NCBI GenBank assembly: GCA_017459635.1
Contig: JAFUCO010000083.1
Span: 1-56,241, forward strand
DNA: 56,241 nucleotides
Reading direction: 5' to 3'
From: Blautia sp.
Lineage (GTDB): Bacteria > Bacillota > Clostridia > Lachnospirales > Lachnospiraceae
In this document: piece after piece, positions 14,373 through 37,942 of the stretch
Numbering within the stretch: the stretch's first letter is position 1
Layout of the letters: each line of letters begins with the position of its first letter
Program-made: the position numbers and the translations under genes
Notes under the pieces: model-generated
The model's database searches: none
Told to the model about the DNA's origin: nothing
Seen by the model: only the letters and a program-made list of their open reading frames with translations

Positions 14373-14399
14373 TTAGCACTCTTTTAAATTGAGTGCTAA
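14373..14399 (+). promoter_or_regulatory. CIRCE operator (HrcA binding site)
   Basis: Perfect consensus: TTAGCACTC (14373-14381), 9-base spacer, GAGTGCTAA (14391-14399). It lies between the promoter and the hrcA ribosome site, the classic autoregulated arrangement. Confidence 0.98.
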
Positions 14400-14424
14400 C
14401 AAGAAGGAAAGGAGGGGATCAGCC

Positions 14425-15465
14425 GTGAGTTTTCGACTTGATGACCGAAAAAAGAAAATACTGAAAGCTATCATCCGGACATACATGGAAACCGGTGAGC
14501 CGGTTGGATCCCGGACCATTTCCAAATATGCCGACCTGAACGTCAGCTCAGCAACCATCCGTAATGAGATGTCGGACCTTACTGAGATGGGCTATATCAT
14601 CCAGCCGCACACGTCAGCCGGCCGTATCCCCTCTGACAAGGGCTACAGGCTGTACGTTGATGAGCTGATGAAGGAAAAAGAGGATGAGATCGCCGAGCTT
14701 CGTTCACTGATGATCGAGCAGACTGACAAGGTAGACAAGGTGCTTAAAAAGGTAGCAAAAGTGCTTGCCTCAAACACCAATTACGCGGCAATGGTATCGG
14801 TTCCGCAGTACCGCGGCAGCCGTATCAAATTCATCCAGCTTTCAAGAGTCAACACAAGGCAGCTGGTTGCGGTTGTCGTGAATGACAACAACCTGATACG
14901 TAATCAGATCATCGAGCTTGTGGATGATATGGATGATGAGACCATCCTGAAGCTGAACCTGCTGCTGAATACCAATCTGAACGGCGTACCCGTGCAGGAC
15001 ATCAATCTGGGTATGATCGCAAGGCTGAAGGAACAGGCCGGCATGCACAGCAGCGTTGTGGCGACCGTGCTTGACGCTGTTGCGGCGACCATACAGGTCG
15101 ATCAGGAGGATGTCGAGATATACACCTCCGGAGCGACAAACATCTTCAGATATCCCGAGCTTGCCGATAAGGAGAAGGCGAGCGAGCTTATCTCAACCTT
15201 CGAGGAGAAGCAGCAGCTGGCCGATCTTGTCAAGGACAGGATGTCCGATGAGGACAATACAGGCCTGTCGGTGTACATCGGCGAAGAGCTTCCGATCCGT
15301 ACAATGAAGGACTGCAGCGTTGTTACAGCTACATACGAGCTGGGCGAAGGGCTGCGGGGCACTATAGGAATTATCGGACCCAAGCGTATGGATTATGAGA
15401 GCGTTGTCGAGAGCCTGAAGGAACTGAAGTCACAGCTTGATGGTCTGCTGACTAATAAAACATAG
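14425..15465 (+). CDS. hrcA: Heat-inducible transcription repressor HrcA
   Basis: Dimeric repressor of class I heat-shock genes that binds CIRCE, with activity maintained by GroEL. 346 residues: N-terminal winged helix (FRLDDRKKKILKAIIRTYMETGEPVG, then SSATIRNEMSDLTEMGYI) and the inserted and GAF-like dimer domains, including SVPQYRGSRIKFIQL and the C-terminal GTIGIIGPKRMDYE signature. It starts with GTG at 14425 behind AAAGGAGGGG; an in-frame ATG upstream at 14389 overlaps the CIRCE arm and is rejected. First gene of its own regulon. Confidence 0.96.
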   Translation: MSFRLDDRKKKILKAIIRTYMETGEPVGSRTISKYADLNVSSATIRNEMSDLTEMGYIIQPHTSAGRIPSDKGYRLYVDELMKEKEDEIAELRSLMIEQTDKVDKVLKKVAKVLASNTNYAAMVSVPQYRGSRIKFIQLSRVNTRQLVAVVVNDNNLIRNQIIELVDDMDDETILKLNLLLNTNLNGVPVQDINLGMIARLKEQAGMHSSVVATVLDAVAATIQVDQEDVEIYTSGATNIFRYPELADKEKASELISTFEEKQQLADLVKDRMSDEDNTGLSVYIGEELPIRTMKDCSVVTATYELGEGLRGTIGIIGPKRMDYESVVESLKELKSQLDGLLTNKT

Positions 15466-15522
15466 CGCTGTGCCGGACAGGCCGGTTTCAGCTTACTATG
15501 GAAGAAAGGTGGGTATGCTTTC

Positions 15523-16269
15523 GTGGCAGATTTAGATATCAATAAAACAGATGACATGCAGACGGATGCAGAGGAGATAAAGATCGAAGGCTCTGATAAT
15601 ACCAAAGAGGAAGAGATAAAGGTCGAAGGCTCTGATGACACCGCTGAAGAAGAGATAAAGATAGAAGAAACTCCCGATCCTGATCCGCATGAAAAGGCTG
15701 AGGATGAAGAGGAAGGCGCATCTTCTGAAGAAGAGACAGATGACAGCTCTGAAGATTCAGACGACACCGGTTGCGCGGATGAAAATGAAACAGAGGAGGC
15801 CGGGAAAACCTCAATGTTCGGCAGAAGGAAAAGGGAGACGGAAAAGTTCCAGAAGCAGATAGAAGAGCTGACGGATCTTCTGAAAAGAAACAGGGCAGAG
15901 TTTGAAAATTTCCGTAAAAGGACAGATAAGGAAAAAGCCAGCATGTATATCATCGGGGCAAGGGATATAGTTGAAAAGATCCTGCCGGTGGTGGACAGCT
16001 TTGAAAGGGGCCTCGCCCAGGCACCCGAGGATGACGCATTCGCAGAAGGCATGAAGCTTGTGTATAAGCAGCTCATGACAGCACTGACAGACCTTGGAGT
16101 GGCACCCATAGAAGCAGTAGGTAAAGAATTTGATCCTGATTTCCACAATGCGGTAATGCATGTGGAGGATGAAAACTATGGAGAAAATATTGTGGTCGAG
16201 GAATTCCAGAAGGGTTATACCTACAAGGATTTCGTGGTAAGACACAGTATGGTTAAAGTAGCGAACTAA
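15523..16269 (+). CDS. grpE: DnaK nucleotide-exchange factor GrpE
   Basis: Releases ADP from DnaK. 248 residues, longer than usual because the first 90 or so are a very acidic, repetitive tail with three imperfect copies of an EEIKIEG-type heptad (near 17-23, 30-36 and 43-49). The conserved part begins about residue 100, with a long coiled coil (KFQKQIEELTDLLKRNRAEFENFRKRTDKEK) and ends in the beta domain (IEAVGKEFDPDFHNAVMH, YTYKDFVVRHSMVKVAN). Start is GTG with AAAGGTGGG upstream. Confidence 0.95.
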   Translation: MADLDINKTDDMQTDAEEIKIEGSDNTKEEEIKVEGSDDTAEEEIKIEETPDPDPHEKAEDEEEGASSEEETDDSSEDSDDTGCADENETEEAGKTSMFGRRKRETEKFQKQIEELTDLLKRNRAEFENFRKRTDKEKASMYIIGARDIVEKILPVVDSFERGLAQAPEDDAFAEGMKLVYKQLMTALTDLGVAPIEAVGKEFDPDFHNAVMHVEDENYGENIVVEEFQKGYTYKDFVVRHSMVKVAN

Positions 16270-16302
16270 TAACTGTTCAGAACAGTCCGAAGCACCTGCT
16301 GC
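16269..16302 (+). repeat. Left-end fragment of the MITE-like element after grpE
   Basis: Bases 16270-16302 match 14144-14176 (directly after the uvrB stop) at 31 of 33 positions, and here too the copy starts immediately after a stop codon. No right terminal repeat is found before dnaK. The remaining 170 bases of spacer contain no gene; a GCGGAT/ATCCGC hairpin (16447-16463) sits just upstream of the dnaK AGGAGG site. Confidence 0.75.
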
Positions 16303-16476
16303 CGTGTGCCGGCGGTACACGTCTGGCAGCGACCGGAGCGCGGACCCGTACGAACATGAGACAGACAGCTTTAAGCGGCAGAAAATACAGACGGGTGGAA
16401 GGAAAGCCGCACAATAAAAGACACCCGGGATTTATCTAAACATACAGCGGATATGACATCCGCACAGGAGGAATGA

Positions 16477-18378
<1,902 letters not shown>

Positions 18379-18536
18379 AAAACCGGAACAGGCTGCAGAC
18401 AGGCATGAATAACACACCGGGTAAGAATTCAGGCCGGTACGAACAGGAGACCGGTACAGGAAGCAGACCGGTATGAATATCGGATCAGTTTAAGCAGCAT
18501 ATCAGAATAGATAATACAGCAGCAGATTGCTGGCAT

Positions 18537-18580
18537 GCACAATATGTTCACAGTACGAAAAGTACTGTGAACAATTGTGC
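18537..18580 (+). promoter_or_regulatory. 19-bp hairpin between dnaK and dnaJ
   Basis: GCACAAT, a bulged A and TGTTCACAGTAC (18537-18556) pair perfectly with GTACTGTGAACA and ATTGTGC (18562-18580) around a 5-base loop. It is not followed by a T run, so it is not a standard terminator. It could be an mRNA processing or stability element that lowers dnaJ relative to dnaK. The spacer before it (18379-18480) holds degenerate CCGGTA and ACAGG repeats. Confidence 0.8.
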
Positions 18581-18632
18581 GTAAAGAGATAATTGACTTT
18601 TTTAAACTTAAAGACAGGCGGGATTTGTTCTT

Positions 18633-19796
18633 ATGGCAGATAAAAGAGATTACTATGAGGTACTGGGTGTCAGCAAGGATGCCGACGAGGCCCAGCTGAA
18701 GAGCGCCTATAGGAAGCTGGCCAAGAAATACCATCCGGACGTTAACCCGGGCAATGCGGAGGCTGAGGCAAAATTCAAGGAGGCAACAGAGGCTTACGGA
18801 ATACTCAGCGATCCGGATAAAAGAAGGCAGTATGACCAGTTTGGACACGCGGCATTTGAGAACGGCGGCGCTGGCGGCGGCTATGGCGGCTTCGACTTTA
18901 CAGGTGCTGATTTCAGCGACATTTTCGGAGATCTGTTCGGGGGAATGTTCGGGGGCGGAAGCCGTACGCGTCAGGCAAACCAGCCGATGCGGGGTGCAAG
19001 CCTGCGGGCAAGGATCAACATCACCTTTGAGGAAGCCGTTTTCGGCTGCGAGAAGGAGCTGGAGATTACCCTTAAGGATCCGTGCGTGACCTGCGGCGGT
19101 ACCGGGGCTAAGCCAGGGACATCTCCCGTCACCTGTACAAAGTGCGGCGGGCGCGGCCAGATAGAGTATACACAGCAGTCGTTGTTCGGAATGGTCAGGA
19201 ATGTATCTGTCTGTCCGGAATGCGGCGGCTCCGGCAAGGTGATAAAGGAAAAATGTACCGCCTGCCGCGGAACAGGCTACACTTCATCAAGGAAGAAGAT
19301 CCAGGTATCAGTACCTGCCGGTATAGATAACGGACAGAGCATCCGCATACGTGATAAGGGTGAACCCGGCATCAACGGCGGGCCGAGAGGCGACCTGCTG
19401 GTTGAGGTCAATGTCGGAAGGCATCCTATCTTCCAACGCCAGGATATGGACATATATTCAACTGCTCCGCTTACATTCGCCCAGGCAGCGCTTGGCGGGG
19501 ATATTCTGATAAACACTGTTGACGGAGATGTCTCATATCATGTAAAGCCGGGCACACAGACCGACACACGTATCAGGCTGAAAGGAAAAGGTGTTCCTTC
19601 ACTTCGGAACAAGGATATCCGGGGCGACCATTACGTTACACTGGTCGTTCAGGTTCCGACGAACCTTACGGCAGCGGCAAGGGATGCGCTGGAGCGCTTT
19701 GACGCAGCCTGCGGAAACCGTCCGCCCAAACCCGAACCGGGTGAGAAGAAGAAAAAAAGCTTCCGTGAGAAACTGAAGGAGACTTTTGAAGACTAA
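18633..19796 (+). CDS. dnaJ: Co-chaperone DnaJ (type I Hsp40)
   Basis: Stimulates DnaK ATP hydrolysis and delivers substrates. 387 residues: J domain with the HPD triad (KYHPDVNPG), a Gly/Phe-rich linker (about 75-110), four CxxCxGxG zinc repeats ([24 protein letters not shown] and CTACRGTG) between about 150 and 215, then the substrate-binding C-terminal domains. The ribosome site is weak (GGCGGG at a long distance), which with the upstream hairpin may hold DnaJ below DnaK levels. Confidence 0.97.
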
Positions 19797-32317: not shown

Positions 32318-35300
32318 GTGAAGACCAGAATCGACCAGCTTCTAAAAGGAGAATTTGATTACTCCCTTCCGGAGCTTCTGTTTTCGGAGGAGAAGATATA
32401 TGTGAGCATCACCCCCGGGGATACATACCAGGGGGAAGTCTATCTTGGCGCGGAAGACGGCCGGAAGATCAGAGGCAGCGTCACTTCTTCAAACAGGAGG
32501 CTTGTACCTGCTTTTTCAGAGCTGTCCGGGACAACGGTAAGGCTGCCTTTCGGCGTGGACGGCATCGGCATGAAGCACGGTGAGAAGATAAACGAATGGT
32601 TATGCTTCACAACCAGCATCGGCGAATACCGGCTTCCGGTCATCATCGAGGCAAAGAAGGATACCGCCGGTACATCCGCAGGGGAAATAAGGACTCCGGA
32701 AGAACTTGCAATCCTTGCTTCCGACAACTTCAGAGAAGCGTACAGAGTGTTCACCTCTCCTGCAATGAACACGATTCTGTCAAAATGCAGCGGACACCAG
32801 CTGTCCGTTTATGAGGGGATCGCCGTACCGCCGGTCACTCTTCAGAGCCTGGAGGAATACCTGTGCGCGTTAAAGCTCAAGGAAAAGGTATCATTCAGGG
32901 TCTCTGATGATAAGAAGGAGATCACCGGGATAAAGGAATCCATGTCGGATTTCCTCCGGATAACACGAAGCGGATGGGGACATCTGAGGCTTGAGATAGA
33001 AGCGGCAGGTGACTTTATATCTCTTGAAAAGCGTGTGCTGACGGATGAGGATTTTATCGGAAGCACATGCATTCTGAACTTTGTAATTCATGCCGGCCGT
33101 CTTGGAAACGGCAATAATTTCGGAAGGATAAGCATCAGCAGTCCTTACGAAAAGAAGGAGACAGCCGTTATAGCGTCCAGAAGGGCGGCCTCTGTCACTT
33201 CACAGAACTCTGATGTCAGGATGGCCGAGAAAAAACGCCGTCTTGACCTTGCGGAGGATTATCTGGATTACAGAACAGGAAGGACAGAGAAATCAGCCTG
33301 GATAGTAAGCGGCCACTATGAACTGAACCGCCTTAAGGAGACCGGCTGCGAATATCCTGAATATCTCCTGCTTGAAGCTTTCATGCTGCTGGAGGAGGAT
33401 AAACCTCAGAAAGCCTCCGAAGTTCTCGCCCGGTTCCGGGATAAGTCCTATGCCAAAGAGGACATGGAGATGGCAGGCGTTTATCTGTACCTCTGTGTAC
33501 GCGCAGGCCTTTACAAGGATAAGGCTGCAGCCATCAGCAGGATCAGCAGCTTCTTTCATCAGAAGGGCGACAGCCTGTGGCTCTGCCTGGTCCTTATAAA
33601 TTTTGATCCGGATTACATCTCATCGCCTTCAAAGGCGCTGGTTCTTCTTGAAGACCTGTTTGACTGCGGCGTCCGTAGTCCCTTCATGTATCTGGCAGCG
33701 CTTGTACGTCTGCGCAGGGATGAAAGTCTTCTTCGTCATATGAACAGGTTCTGGACCCAGGTCTTTCTGTTCGGGGCGAAGCGCGGTTATCTGACAGAAG
33801 AACTTGCAATGCGTTTTTCATATCTGTGCAGGTACGAAAAACAATATGCAGAGTGCCTTTACAGAGCGCTTGTAAAAGCATATGAAAGCCACGGACTGGA
33901 TGATACACTTGAAGCCATATGCCGTTACATAATGCTGGACAATCCGCGGAAGAAAGAGTACTTCAGATGGTACAGCCTGGCGGTTGAAAAAGGCATCAGG
34001 CTTACAAGACTTTACGAGTATTACATGGAAACACTGGATACATCGTACAGGCGGCCATTGCCGCGCCCTGTCCTGATGTATTTTAATTATAACAACAACA
34101 GCCTTTTTGAGAGCCGCAAGGCCTGGCTGTACGCGGTCGTAACCGAAAACCGGGAAGCCGACCCGGAAAGCTTTGAATCATACAGGGGGATCATTGAAGA
34201 ATTTGCCAGAGCCCGGCTTAAAGAAGGCAAAATAAACGAGGATCTGGCGATCCTGTACAGACATTTTATAACAGCGCCGGAGGATTCGCAGGAAGCTGAA
34301 GCACTTTCCGATATAGCCTTCTGCAGGCGTGCATACTGCGATTCAAAGGAGATACGCTCCATAGTCGTGAAGCACAGGCAGCTCAGGCAGGAGACGGTCT
34401 ATCCGGTAGTGCGCGGGGAAGCCTATCCAAGGATTTATACTCCCGATGCAGCCATTATATTTGTCGACTCACGCCAGAGAAGATTTGCATCGACGGTAGA
34501 GCATACCATCAAGCCCCTGCTCGACGAAAAACTGTACGTCAGGCAAAGCCTTGACAAGGGGGCGCAGGATCCCGGACTGCTCCTGTCCTTCTGTGAGGGC
34601 AACGCTGTCCGGGCCGGAAACTTAAGATTTTTCAAAGAGGCGGCAGCTTCGCCTTCCTTTACCACGGAATACAAGGATGAGATAAGGCACAGGATACTTG
34701 AATTCTATCGTACGGACATACGCGGAGAGAGCATGGAGCTGAATATCGATGATACAGAGCTTCGTGAATATGCCATGGCGGACAGGAAGGGACTCCTTGA
34801 AGTCCTGACCATGCGCGGTATGTATGAAGAAGCCTTCCGCATTATCGAAGAATTCGGAACCGAGGATATCGATCCGTCCGCCCTTCTTCTCATCACCAGG
34901 AGAATGATCAGAAGGTACGATATGGAGGAGGACGACGAGCTGGTCGCCCTTGCCACTGAGGTCTATAACAACGGTACCTATGATGAGACGATACTTCAGT
35001 ATCTGATGGAGCACCGGAACGGACCTGTGGATGAGCTGATAAAGATCCTTAAAAGCGCCCGGGGATTTGACATGGAGACCTACGCCTTCGAGGAGAAGCT
35101 CCTCGGGATTCTCATGCTGACCCAGGACTACCGGAAAGAGGGCGAGGCTATCCTTGAGCACTACAGCAATTCCTCCGGCAAAGAGAGAGTGATCGGTGCT
35201 TACCTGACCCAGGCATCCTACGGATACGTTGTCAGGGATTACAATATATCGGCGTTTGAGCGGACCGTGCTGGAAAGGGCCTGGCGGAGAAAATGGCCAG

Positions 35301-35875
35301 TAGACAGGATCTGCCGTATCGCGCTTTTCAAGGCAATAGTACGGGAGAAGGATCCAAAAGGGCGCTATGCAGCCATGAAAAAGGAACTGCTTGCCGAGTG
35401 CCAGGACTACGGATACGTCTTTTCATTCTTCCAGAGGCTTCCGGATTCAATGCTGAGCCTTTACCAGCTTGACGACAAAACGATAGTGGAATGCCATGCA
35501 GATCCGGAGGCCAGTGTGACATTGCATTACAGGATAGAGACGGGGCTCCTGAAGGAGCCGTCATGGCGGGAAAAACCGGTTTCTGACATGTATGAAGGAG
35601 TGTTCACTGCCATGTTTACACTGTTTTATGGCGATACCCTGAAATACTTCTTCGAGATAGAAAAGGACGGCAGATCAAAAAAGACAGCCGAACGGACGAT
35701 ACGGATGAACCAGCCCGAGGGAATACCTGGAAGCAGGTATCAGCTTATCAATCATCTGCTTTCCTGCCACAGGCTGGGAAGGGATAAGGAAGCCCAGGAG
35801 GGCCTCAGGCAGTACCTGAGGCAGCAGCAGTTCGTTGAAGATATGTTCGTCCCGGAAGAAAAAAGATACGGGTAA
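32318..35875 (+). CDS. DUF5717-family large cytosolic scaffold-like protein
   Basis: 1185 residues with no signal peptide or transmembrane segment. Residues 1-110 look beta-rich and Ig-like (EKIYVSITPGDTYQGEVYL, RLPFGVDGIGMKHGE, GEYRLPVII). A second beta domain follows to about 290. Residues 300-1010 are helical and suggest TPR/HAT-type repeats (YLLLEAFMLLEEDKPQKASEVL, EEAFRIIEEFG). The C terminus (about 1045-1185) returns to beta strands, then a helical end. GTG start with an AAAGGTGG site. It is first in a tight operon with DUF5716 and a TPR-like gene (spacers 11 and 4 bases). No function known to me. Confidence 0.78.
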   Translation: MKTRIDQLLKGEFDYSLPELLFSEEKIYVSITPGDTYQGEVYLGAEDGRKIRGSVTSSNRRLVPAFSELSGTTVRLPFGVDGIGMKHGEKINEWLCFTTSIGEYRLPVIIEAKKDTAGTSAGEIRTPEELAILASDNFREAYRVFTSPAMNTILSKCSGHQLSVYEGIAVPPVTLQSLEEYLCALKLKEKVSFRVSDDKKEITGIKESMSDFLRITRSGWGHLRLEIEAAGDFISLEKRVLTDEDFIGSTCILNFVIHAGRLGNGNNFGRISISSPYEKKETAVIASRRAASVTSQNSDVRMAEKKRRLDLAEDYLDYRTGRTEKSAWIVSGHYELNRLKETGCEYPEYLLLEAFMLLEEDKPQKASEVLARFRDKSYAKEDMEMAGVYLYLCVRAGLYKDKAAAISRISSFFHQKGDSLWLCLVLINFDPDYISSPSKALVLLEDLFDCGVRSPFMYLAALVRLRRDESLLRHMNRFWTQVFLFGAKRGYLTEELAMRFSYLCRYEKQYAECLYRALVKAYESHGLDDTLEAICRYIMLDNPRKKEYFRWYSLAVEKGIRLTRLYEYYMETLDTSYRRPLPRPVLMYFNYNNNSLFESRKAWLYAVVTENREADPESFESYRGIIEEFARARLKEGKINEDLAILYRHFITAPEDSQEAEALSDIAFCRRAYCDSKEIRSIVVKHRQLRQETVYPVVRGEAYPRIYTPDAAIIFVDSRQRRFASTVEHTIKPLLDEKLYVRQSLDKGAQDPGLLLSFCEGNAVRAGNLRFFKEAAASPSFTTEYKDEIRHRILEFYRTDIRGESMELNIDDTELREYAMADRKGLLEVLTMRGMYEEAFRIIEEFGTEDIDPSALLLITRRMIRRYDMEEDDELVALATEVYNNGTYDETILQYLMEHRNGPVDELIKILKSARGFDMETYAFEEKLLGILMLTQDYRKEGEAILEHYSNSSGKERVIGAYLTQASYGYVVRDYNISAFERTVLERAWRRKWPVDRICRIALFKAIVREKDPKGRYAAMKKELLAECQDYGYVFSFFQRLPDSMLSLYQLDDKTIVECHADPEASVTLHYRIETGLLKEPSWREKPVSDMYEGVFTAMFTLFYGDTLKYFFEIEKDGRSKKTAERTIRMNQPEGIPGSRYQLINHLLSCHRLGRDKEAQEGLRQYLRQQQFVEDMFVPEEKRYG

Positions 35876-35886
35876 AGGGAAAAAAG

Positions 35887-37134
35887 ATGAACGAAATAAG
35901 AAATCTGCTTATCGGCATCGATTTTGGAAAAGAGAATACGCAGGTCTGCTACTATGACCGTAAAGCGGAAGAGCCTTTATCCCTGTCACTTAAGGCCGGT
36001 GAGACCATGTACGAAGTGCCCACCAGTCTTTTAAAGCGAAGCGAGAGCAGCGGATATTCGCTCACTTCTAAAGAAGAGATCGATGCGCTCGAAGAAAGCA
36101 GCAGCCTTATAAGAAATCTTTATGATATAACCGGGCGGGCAGAGCCGGTGCGCCTTTCCGGGGAGGATAAACAGCCCTGGGAGCTGACAGCCGGTTTTCT
36201 GCAGGGAATACTGCGGTATCTTGGAGTCAGTGATATCGTGCGCAGCATCTCAGCTCTTGCGATAGCAGCAGAAGAACTCACTCCGGAGAGGGTGGGAAAT
36301 CTGAAAAAAGCAGCCTCATCCCTCGGATTTGATGAGAGCGCGGTATACCTTCTGGATTATGATGAATGCTTTTTCTACCATGTGATGACGCAGAAAAAGG
36401 AGATTCCTGCAAGGAACACAGCATGGTACAGCTTCAGCGGAAACACATGCTGCTTCCGTAAAATGATCCTGACTACAACAAAAAGGCCGGTACGTGTCAG
36501 CATTGGGGAAGCAGAGGAGATATCCCTTCCGGAGGAGCCTGAAAAAAGGGATGAGGCCTTCGCAATATTCGTCCAGAAAACCCTGGGACAGGAGATATAC
36601 TCCAGCATCCAGATCACCGGTGAAGGCTTTGACAGGGCCTGGGCAGTGCATTCAACGCGCATCCTCTGCTTCGGCAAACGTAAAGTGTACTACGGCAACA
36701 ACCTGTATGCCAGAGGCGCCTGCGCGATGCTGAAAGAGAAGCTTGAGAACCATGCCCTGAAGAACTATCTTTTTGAAAGCAGGTATCTTGTAAAAAGCGA
36801 AGTCGGGATGCACATGCGTGTGATGGGCGCAAATGCCTACTACACAATGATACGCAGCGGGAGCAACTGGTATGAATGCAAATGCAGCTGCGAGATACTT
36901 CTTGACGATGTAAATGAACTTGTTTTCGAAGTAACGATGGAGAATGAAGCTGACATAAGGCGGATAGCCATGAAGCTTCCGGGCCTGCCGGACAGGCCGC
37001 CAAAGGCCTCAAGGCTCAGGCTTGACCTTGAGTATATTTCACGAGAAAAATGCAGGATCCTGGTCACGGACCTTGGATTCGGCGAGATGTTCCCGTCGAG
37101 CGGCCTTACCTGGACCGAGACGGTGGAGTGGTAG
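35887..37134 (+). CDS. DUF5716-family actin/Hsp70-like protein with degenerate ATP site
   Basis: 415 residues. The N terminus LLIGIDFGKENTQVCYYD has the actin/Hsp70 phosphate-1 signature (compare Dna[14 protein letters not shown]). A ConnectI-like VYLLDYDECFFYHVM is near 155-170. The phosphate-2 position (WYSFSGNTC, near 180) lacks the usual DxGxGT acid. An adenosine-like motif appears near 243-284 (ITGEGFDRAW, then YYGNNLYARGACAML, like GGSTRVP...ALGA). The C-terminal 130 residues form a beta-rich domain unlike Hsp70. It may be a nucleotide-binding but weakly hydrolysing ATPase, or a pseudo-ATPase. Sits between the DUF5717 scaffold and a TPR-like gene. Confidence 0.72.
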   Translation: MNEIRNLLIGIDFGKENTQVCYYDRKAEEPLSLSLKAGETMYEVPTSLLKRSESSGYSLTSKEEIDALEESSSLIRNLYDITGRAEPVRLSGEDKQPWELTAGFLQGILRYLGVSDIVRSISALAIAAEELTPERVGNLKKAASSLGFDESAVYLLDYDECFFYHVMTQKKEIPARNTAWYSFSGNTCCFRKMILTTTKRPVRVSIGEAEEISLPEEPEKRDEAFAIFVQKTLGQEIYSSIQITGEGFDRAWAVHSTRILCFGKRKVYYGNNLYARGACAMLKEKLENHALKNYLFESRYLVKSEVGMHMRVMGANAYYTMIRSGSNWYECKCSCEILLDDVNELVFEVTMENEADIRRIAMKLPGLPDRPPKASRLRLDLEYISREKCRILVTDLGFGEMFPSSGLTWTETVEW

Positions 37135-37138
37135 TAAT

Positions 37139-37942
37139 ATGGGTGATTATATTCTTTGCCAGACCAGGAGGGCGGAAAAGCCCTTTTATCTGCAGCCGGT
37201 CAGGCTGAACATTTATTCTGTTGAAGAGCTGTGCTATTTCCTGGTAAACGACCTTTATCTTGTTGACAGCAGCGTGTTCTGCGAAGGCCTGGCCGAATGG
37301 CTTGAGAATGAGGCCGGGCTTTCAAAGCTTGCGGTGCGGCTGAGGCCTAAGCTCAGCAGATACACGGACATACAGGAGCTTATCTATCCGGTCCTTAAGG
37401 AGATCAATTATCTGACCTACGACGAGATGAAAAAATTCAGCGCCGCCATCCAGGTTTATCACAACGAATCGGCCTGCATGCGTGAGCGCAAAAAAGGCGA
37501 CAGCCTGGCCCGGAACGGTATCCTCGCGGATGCCATCCAGGTATATCAGGACCTGATCCACAGGATAGAGAAGGCTGAGCCCGGCCGGGAGATACCGGAG
37601 TCTGATTTTTCACTCATTCCGGTCCTTTATCACAATCTGGGGTGCGCGTTTTCCCGGCTTTTCCAGATGGAAAAAGCCGCCGAATGCTTCTGGGAGGCAT
37701 ACAGATGGACCGGCAGCAATGAAGATCTGTGCACCTACATGCTGGCCTACCGGAGCATAAAAACACCTCTTGAATACCAGAGCAGGCTTGCCGAACTGGG
37801 GGTTGAGGAGGAAGTCAGAAAAGAGATAAATGACCGCCTGGATGACTTCAGACGCAGGCCGGAGAGGCAGGTATATATACAGGATATAGATGAAATACTG
37901 ACAAAACTTACAGAAGAATATCACCGCAGTACCGGTTCATAA
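37139..37942 (+). CDS. TPR-like helical protein, third gene of the DUF5717/5716 module
   Basis: 267 residues, cytosolic, mostly helical. An N-terminal segment (YILCQTRRAEKPFYLQPVRLNIYSVEELCYFL) precedes helices with TPR-like spacing: KKGDSLARNGILADAIQVYQDLI near 120-142 and PVLYHNLGCAFSRLFQMEKAAECFWEAY near 160-190. A charged C terminus follows (DDFRRRPERQVYIQDIDEILTKLTEEY). The start at 37139 is 4 bases after the DUF5716 stop with GGTGGAG upstream. I do not recognise a named family; an adaptor role is inferred only from position and fold. Confidence 0.7.
   Translation: MGDYILCQTRRAEKPFYLQPVRLNIYSVEELCYFLVNDLYLVDSSVFCEGLAEWLENEAGLSKLAVRLRPKLSRYTDIQELIYPVLKEINYLTYDEMKKFSAAIQVYHNESACMRERKKGDSLARNGILADAIQVYQDLIHRIEKAEPGREIPESDFSLIPVLYHNLGCAFSRLFQMEKAAECFWEAYRWTGSNEDLCTYMLAYRSIKTPLEYQSRLAELGVEEEVRKEINDRLDDFRRRPERQVYIQDIDEILTKLTEEYHRSTGS

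Follow-up and report, generated by a model that had tools for sequence, protein, structure and literature searches.

Ssz1, a component of the yeast ribosome-associated complex (RAC), cannot go through the canonical Hsp70 cycle but still binds nascent chains, which it does within RAC through a rudimentary substrate-binding domain (SBD) (PMC7083937). It is the nearest working model for DUF5716, the middle protein of a three-gene module on a contig of Blautia sp. (assembly GCA_017459635.1, contig JAFUCO010000083.1, all 56,241 nt of which are here called the window), although the comparison is one of anatomy only. Ssz1 has a structure with ATP and magnesium bound (4gni, judged by its title), whereas DUF5716 is without lobe IIB and several nucleotide contacts; and the partner of Ssz1 is a J-domain protein, whereas the partner proposed here for DUF5716 is a protein made of beta-sandwiches and an alpha-solenoid, DUF5717. 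Degenerate Hsp70s also occur in CnuD of the Type III CoCoNuT systems, where a nucleotide-binding domain (NBD) and SBD of this kind are combined with HEAT-like repeats in systems having Ig-like parts (PMC11090510), and the actinobacterial and firmicute neighbourhoods of GAP1-N2 GTPases contain HSP70, GrpE and TPR repeats, some of them with a second HSP70 lacking the peptide-binding domain (PMC7159879). In Pfam, DUF5717 (PF18984, PF18983) and DUF5716 (PF18980) are families to which no function is assigned and whose descriptions make no link to Hsp70-B, GrpE or PapD/ASH-like domains, and no account of their function or of the gene cluster described below was found in those parts of the literature that were accessible. 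The present analysis gives both families a definite ancestry.

Profile comparisons identify the module as the reduced descendant of a larger cluster found in other families of the order (families are numbered f4, f5 and so on). This ancestral cluster has seven to eight genes, which encode a PapD/ASH-like sandwich protein (~385-434 amino acids, aa), an alpha-solenoid protein (~900 aa), Hsp70-A (~559 aa), a GrpE-domain protein (mostly 560-645 aa), Hsp70-B (~520 aa), Hsp70-C (~546 aa), Hsp70-D with a VWA domain (~691 aa) and, as the last gene, a TPR protein (~387 aa, range 380-400). DUF5717 corresponds to a fusion of the first two, DUF5716 to Hsp70-B and the third gene of the module to the TPR protein; Hsp70-A, C and D and the GrpE-domain gene are missing from the locus in Lachnospiraceae, the family of the window (assigned from named relatives), which is a statement about the locus and not about every genome of the family. 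With at most seven seeds per gene, and with the window proteins not among the seeds, the ancestral profiles matched the window proteins at 1.5e-80 (solenoid), 2.7e-29 (sandwich), 1.2e-25 (Hsp70-B) and 2.2e-13 (TPR). Scored by the same profiles, the order solenoid-A-GrpE-B-C-D-TPR on one strand was found at 30 of 75 loci outside Lachnospiraceae, in 10 families (at one of the 30, L039, D and TPR are each split in two pieces); many of the remaining loci end at contig ends and others are dispersed. Family f5 often has the sandwich and solenoid genes without the rest, which in one of its genomes (G040) lies at two other places.

The cluster shares its ancestry with DnaK/Hsp70 and GrpE. Three of its Hsp70s (A, C and D) have intact phosphate motifs in the examples inspected, and the GrpE domain scores 37-55 bits against a Pfam cut-off of 25.8 in all three proteins scanned. 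The profile of this gene also picks up the GrpE of 4ani at 1.4e-4 as well as short GrpE proteins of canonical length. In contrast to DnaK-GrpE, the GrpE domain here forms the C-terminal part of a much longer protein and no J-domain was recognised by Pfam among the cluster proteins scanned, nor was one in the three window proteins.

The fourth Hsp70, Hsp70-B, is degenerate and matches DUF5716_C as well as HSP70 in Pfam; it supplies the link by which DUF5716 can be placed. Profile-profile alignment of DUF5716 with ancestral Hsp70-B gave E 2.4e-30 over 404 columns, and the alignments with both Hsp70-B and Hsp70-C extend to the C-terminal end. In a tree, DUF5716 branches together with Hsp70-B from family f4 (support 100/98). 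The Hsp70-B profile in turn matches BiP/DnaK at 3.5e-22, through the beta domain of the SBD (SBD-beta). The predicted fold of DUF5716 agrees: among the 50 structural matches listed, 49 are Hsp70/Hsp110-type by title, Ssz1 included, and on re-examination of these best Foldseek matches none is an actin-like filament protein by title. DUF5716 thus has a homologous NBD and SBD-beta, which places it in the Hsp70 superfamily.

What DUF5716 lacks are features of an Hsp70 chaperone ATPase: most catalytic residues, lobe IIB and the helical lid. Residues were tallied for 45 distinct Hsp70-B proteins outside Lachnospiraceae, 28 distinct reduced Hsp70-B proteins (that of locus L147, discussed below, included) and eight Hsp70-C proteins as a control, in a numbering we take to be that of Escherichia coli DnaK; open reading frames (ORFs) of Hsp70-B below 370 or 400 aa, depending on the group, and proteins missed by the local profile, such as that of G281 in which Pfam finds DUF5716, are outside these counts. 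The control Hsp70-C proteins have the checked residues in 8/8, except for Asn13 (7/8) and two residues after Glu171 (0/8). Outside Lachnospiraceae, Hsp70-B has lost Lys70, Thr12, Thr199 and Asp201 in all 45 proteins, position 201 being Arg in 38 of them, and Thr11 is left in 8/45; Asp8 (41/45), Asp194 (42/45) and the two adenosine glycines (43/45 and 38/45) are mostly kept. In the reduced proteins Thr11, Thr12, Lys70 and the second adenosine glycine are each 0/28, and Glu171 (1/28), Thr199 (4/28) and Asp201 (1/28) are rare. Alignment thus indicates that Hsp70-B is without most hydrolytic residues in every lineage aligned.

The loss of lobe IIB is a Lachnospiraceae feature in these alignments. 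Between phosphate-2 and the adenosine motif lie 57-74 aa in all 28 reduced proteins, against 112-149 aa in the 45 and 140 aa in the DnaK of the window, while the other segments are of similar length in most. The missing residues map to what we take to be lobe IIB. GrpE grips this lobe, which closes over the nucleotide. The part from the linker onwards measures 120-139 aa in the reduced proteins, where DnaK has 271, and in alignment the proteins stop where SBD-beta does, leaving no lid. In family f22 the Hsp70-B proteins (L143, L144 and L145; 412-415 aa) have almost lost their motifs, yet the genes for the GrpE-domain protein and for Hsp70-A, C and D adjoin, so B can degenerate while the others are retained.

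The remaining two proteins of the module carry the same descent. DUF5717 aligned with the ancestral solenoid with probability 100 and E 3.5e-69 over 854 columns, and in Pfam the ancestral sandwich protein matches the N-terminal third of DUF5717_N and the ancestral solenoid the remainder of DUF5717. The fusion was found at 26 of 27 Lachnospiraceae loci, 4 of 8 f24 loci, one f12 locus and one f19 locus; the two parts therefore belong together, having been fused in four families. A predicted structure of DUF5717 (mean predicted local distance difference test (pLDDT) 71, predicted template-modelling score 0.37) has two beta-sandwiches separated by a helical stretch, followed by a long alpha-solenoid that contains small beta domains. 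Among the best matches of the sandwiches are PapD-like chaperones, MSP and HYDIN domains, at a root mean square deviation (rmsd) of 2.1-3.8 and with no sequence support, but Ig-like modules from glycosidases, from an S-layer protein and from a peptidase match equally well. As a pair the sandwiches resemble proteins of the axonemal central apparatus and CEP192 at rmsd 13 or more. The third gene encodes a shortened orthologue of the ancestral TPR protein, with which it shares an N-terminal segment in alignment. It lies below the curated Pfam cut-off for TPR (best 20.3 bits against 27.8), but the ancestral orthologues at L040 and L044 lie well above theirs, and the third gene is accordingly TPR-like by descent. 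One Lachnospiraceae genome (G382, L148) has a solenoid gene of 853 aa in which the sandwich part was not found, being either lost or misread.

DUF5716_C was found in 36 of 37 same-genus genomes, the window's own counted in, in 11 of 24 genomes sampled from other families of the order and, in a phylum-wide draw of 249 genomes, in four, all from Lachnospiraceae and the window's genome among them; the C-terminal model of DUF5717 had matches in 93 of 196 genomes from the order. Of 291 genomes in a class draw, 12 matched the solenoid profile (10 from Lachnospiraceae, two weak and partial), and the profile of the GrpE-domain gene matched 10 of 299 genomes in a phylum draw, over its C-terminal third only and in frames of 184-268 aa, both draws holding few genomes from cluster-bearing families. 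No relatives of DUF5717 were found on a scan of viral contigs. The three genes have the same order and strand at 26 of 30 same-genus loci; at the other four, one or two genes were not called by the ORF pick, which does not show that they are absent. Solenoid, B and TPR follow in this order at 25 of 27 Lachnospiraceae loci, a figure that speaks of order and not of frequency because these loci were chosen for holding DUF5716 or DUF5717. The two exceptions are a locus with DUF5716 by Pfam and one without a called TPR gene. A single f8 genome (G447, L147) is listed with the module, its solenoid being of the Lachnospiraceae type. It was considered as an unfused intermediate and dropped, as the gene runs off the contig and its tree position is nested within Lachnospiraceae, which makes transfer, misassignment or contamination likely.

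An initial annotation made from the window alone had described the locus as three packed cytosolic genes, and in this respect it holds up: the ORFs are real and co-directional with spacers of 11 and 4 bases, the proteins have no membrane-helix-like stretch (highest 19-residue Kyte-Doolittle window 1.31), DUF5717 is predicted to combine beta domains with a helical solenoid, much as proposed, and in the middle protein the phosphate-1 signature, the phosphate-2 segment without an acidic residue and the adenosine-like motif were all read correctly (Table 1). The gene-order survey for which it called gives the locus counts above, and the fold matches predict an actin/Hsp70 core. Its view that the C-terminal domain of DUF5716 is not Hsp70-like is refuted by the alignments through SBD-beta, and its proposal of a nucleotide-gated assembly fares badly, as described below. 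The Pfam models for DUF5717 (DUF5717_N, 778 bits; DUF5717, 292 bits) cover nearly the whole protein, and the DUF5716_C match (289 bits) begins at residue 124. The mechanical ORF of the third gene starts earlier than its ATG, at 37022. NCBIfam and PHROGs gave nothing useful for the module proteins.

Table 1. Coordinates of the module, its predicted domains and motifs, and other loci mentioned in the text (positions in the window unless a locus is named)
Feature	Position	Strand	Basis or remark
DUF5717 protein, 1185 aa, GTG start	32318-35875	+	Pfam and ancestral-profile matches
First PapD/ASH-like beta-sandwich of DUF5717, residues ~18-114	32369-32659	+	
Second PapD/ASH/MSP-like beta-sandwich of DUF5717, residues ~191-293	32888-33196	+	
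Alpha-solenoid of DUF5717, residues ~298-1030	33209-35407	+	Small beta domain inserted at 669-733
DUF5716, predicted catalytically dead Hsp70, 415 aa, without lobe IIB and lid	35887-37134	+	Profile-profile alignment, tree, fold, residue tally, segment lengths
DUF5716 phosphate-1 motif IGIDFGKENTQV, residues 9-20	35911-35946	+	Asp retained, both Thr of the Hsp70 motif substituted
DUF5716 phosphate-2 position WYSFSGNT, residues 180-187	36424-36447	+	No Asp194 equivalent; site of lobe IIB deletion comes next
DUF5716 adenosine motif ITGEGF, residues 243-248	36613-36630	+	Second Gly replaced by Glu
DUF5716 remnant Hsp70 SBD-beta, residues ~293-415, without helical lid	36763-37131	+	Profile-profile alignment
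TPR-like protein, 267 aa from ATG	37139-37942	+	Local TPR profile, shared N-terminal segment, sub-threshold Pfam TPR
hrcA-grpE-dnaK-dnaJ operon, exact CIRCE at 14373	14373-19796	as module	~12.5 kb upstream of module
Genes after the cluster on the TPR side	L118:3443-4603, L144:3947-5035, L089:1525-2628, L039:5099-6238		

The best reading overall, and one that we consider probable, is an ATP-independent pseudo-Hsp70 carried on a PapD/ASH-solenoid scaffold with a TPR adaptor. The parts of this reading are of unequal strength. The ancestry and the loss of the ATPase cycle are highly probable. A holding or hand-over role, argued by analogy, is tentative and falls somewhat short of an even chance. 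DUF5717 would be the platform, its solenoid holding the pseudo-Hsp70, and the TPR-like protein would act as an adaptor coupling the complex to a partner. The retained SBD-beta might then loosely bind a client or a partner tail with no nucleotide cycle, the substrate being held or handed over, perhaps to canonical DnaK, in the manner of Ssz1. It is possible, though we are inclined to doubt it, that a permanently set peptide-binding or docking module was what remained when the ancestral cluster lost its three motif-intact Hsp70s and its exchange factor in Lachnospiraceae. Were the reading true, a major gut bacterial family would possess a second chaperone principle, an Hsp70 machine that has abandoned ATP. 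Testable questions follow as to whether DUF5716 binds nucleotide, what occupies its SBD-beta and what purpose a cluster of four Hsp70s serves. The order as a whole offers a natural series, from full cluster through dispersed genes to two separate reductions, of what survives in an Hsp70 system minus its ATPases.

Several observations weigh against this reading. A complex of the three proteins, and client binding by them, are things we infer. The residue tallies come from one MAFFT alignment of divergent proteins. DUF5716 by itself has no HSP70 match in Pfam, and a direct search of its profile against PDB sequences was rejected as it gave a chance match only (E 0.71) and no Hsp70, so that the link to Hsp70 goes via ancestral Hsp70-B. 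Its model is middling (mean pLDDT 63, below 50 for residues 271-332) and only four of the 50 listed structural matches reach the C-terminus, with rmsd 15-23; SBD-beta is hence backed by sequence more than by structure. The reduced proteins keep the phosphate-1 residue Asp8 in 27/28 and Asp194 in 16/28, for which reason residual nucleotide binding is possible in some lineages. In G051 (f16) a separate reduction to sandwich, solenoid and B has retained the IIB segment (134 aa), the single canonical GrpE being the only GrpE found in that genome; losing one and keeping the other, it shows that loss of the GrpE gene and loss of IIB are not strictly coupled. No HrcA (CIRCE) site was found before the module in the window.

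A role nearly as likely as holding is that of a pure structural platform. The ancestry would be the same, but DUF5716 would be a rigid part of a solenoid scaffold, for ribosome docking or complex assembly, with an SBD-beta that has no client. The Ig-like sandwiches fit this, as does the long solenoid, which weakly resembles scaffolds like Naa15 and the Ski complex, and so does the fact that sandwich, solenoid and B are the genes retained both in Lachnospiraceae and, separately, in G051. SBD-beta is, on the other side, somewhat better conserved than the NBD lobes, an observation by which structural and peptide-binding constraint are not separable: mean identity to the commonest residue across the 28 reduced proteins is 0.51 in SBD-beta, 0.47 in IA/IB and 0.40 in IIA, with 0.57 from the adenosine motif to the linker. 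Across these divergent proteins 49 positions are at least 80% identical, namely 18/123 in SBD-beta, 13/172 in IA/IB, 4/60 in IIA and 14/51 from adenosine motif to linker.

The nucleotide-gated assembly of the initial annotation, in which DUF5716 would bind ATP, move the complex from one state to another and perhaps form filaments, is improbable. It has in its favour the predicted actin/Hsp70 core and the nearly invariant phosphate-1 Asp. It would have to work without Lys70, Thr11, Thr12 and the second adenosine glycine in any of the 28 reduced proteins and, in the window, without the phosphate-2 Asp194; with most catalytic residues, the GrpE gene of the locus and lobe IIB gone, gating is unlikely.

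We give still less credence to a conflict or antiphage system built around a degenerate Hsp70, after the fashion of CnuD or the GAP1-N2 neighbourhoods, in spite of the pairing of Hsp70-like parts with GrpE, TPR, HEAT or Ig-like parts in those systems (PMC7159879 and PMC11090510). Weak PADLOC matches of 20-35 bits were obtained for four of the seven ancestral cluster proteins scanned (PDC-M61B for Hsp70-A, C and D; PDC-M71B for TPR), to models that carry no description, but the window proteins have none (0/3 at E 0.001) and none in PHROGs (0/3). In the scan of the cluster proteins Pfam recognised neither effectors nor nucleases nor GTPases; in particular the module has no recognised McrB-like GTPase, McrC or nuclease, unlike CoCoNuT, and neither module nor cluster has a recognised GTPase or GAP1-N2 protein. 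The solenoid tree tracks families, with 15 label changes, the minimum possible, which is inheritance along families and not the behaviour of mobile defence genes. The window neighbourhood looks housekeeping-like, judged partly by presumed gene names.

Least credible is a decaying remnant left without selected function once the ATPases were lost, which the many missing residues, the absent lobe IIB and the low identity between genera would suit, since DUF5716 is near-universal among the sampled genomes of its genus, the listed PF18980 and PF18983 matches have no internal stops, gene order is kept in the family and the 49 positions above are conserved.

Among genomes with a full or partial cluster, a second, in-cluster GrpE domain was present in all nine examined. 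In Lachnospiraceae 24 of 26 genomes have one GrpE over the cut-off, the exceptions being G459 and the window's genome (G000), in which the second GrpE accompanies an accessory Hsp70 and a J-domain protein. This accessory system (L177:5191-9070, contig C3) consists of a GrpE-like protein, a 575-aa Hsp70 and a J-domain protein that also matches TPR and SEC-C. On another contig of the same genome (C45, L178:174-4491) an 827-aa protein, which begins with an Hsp70 domain and whose long C-terminus has no above-cut-off Pfam matches, adjoins a 565-aa protein with a weak TPR-profile score. Extra Hsp70s, besides DnaK and proteins of MreB length, occur in 9 of the 26 Lachnospiraceae genomes among the matches listed. 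The three classified (two from G000, one from G459) are none of Hsp70-A, C or D: these three score 57-237 with the A, C and D profiles against at least 731 for full-length members, apart from a 563-aa L138 protein at 193, which is probably no member.

Because the CIRCE of the window's heat-shock operon runs over the TTG listed as the hrcA start (14389), translation of hrcA probably begins further downstream. At up to five mismatches the only other CIRCE-like place in the window is 33015, inside DUF5717, and at up to four mismatches 2.0 Mb of other loci gave two places, L098:1763 and L051:18146, of which the second lies ~3.2 kb upstream of a module; neither was counted as a site.

The genes upstream of the module include a U32-family gene, an O-methyltransferase gene (both by Pfam) and others that we take to be rnjA, ylbF and mltG; those downstream are presumably purC, purB and purA. 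Across 29 loci, the window's and 28 related reduced ones, a purB relative was found in at least 15 and a U32 relative in at least seven (the window, L001-L004 and two same-genus loci), both lower bounds because the stretches vary in length.

The VWA domain at the C-terminus of Hsp70-D (L040:7787-9862 and orthologues) has the metal-site motif DTTGSM (DxTxS) in four examples, and DxSxS was found in none of 40 proteins within the stretch searched. In families f22 and f4 a gene of ~360-390 aa, with no Pfam family above cut-off, follows on the TPR side of the cluster (four examples in Table 1) and may be a ninth member of it.

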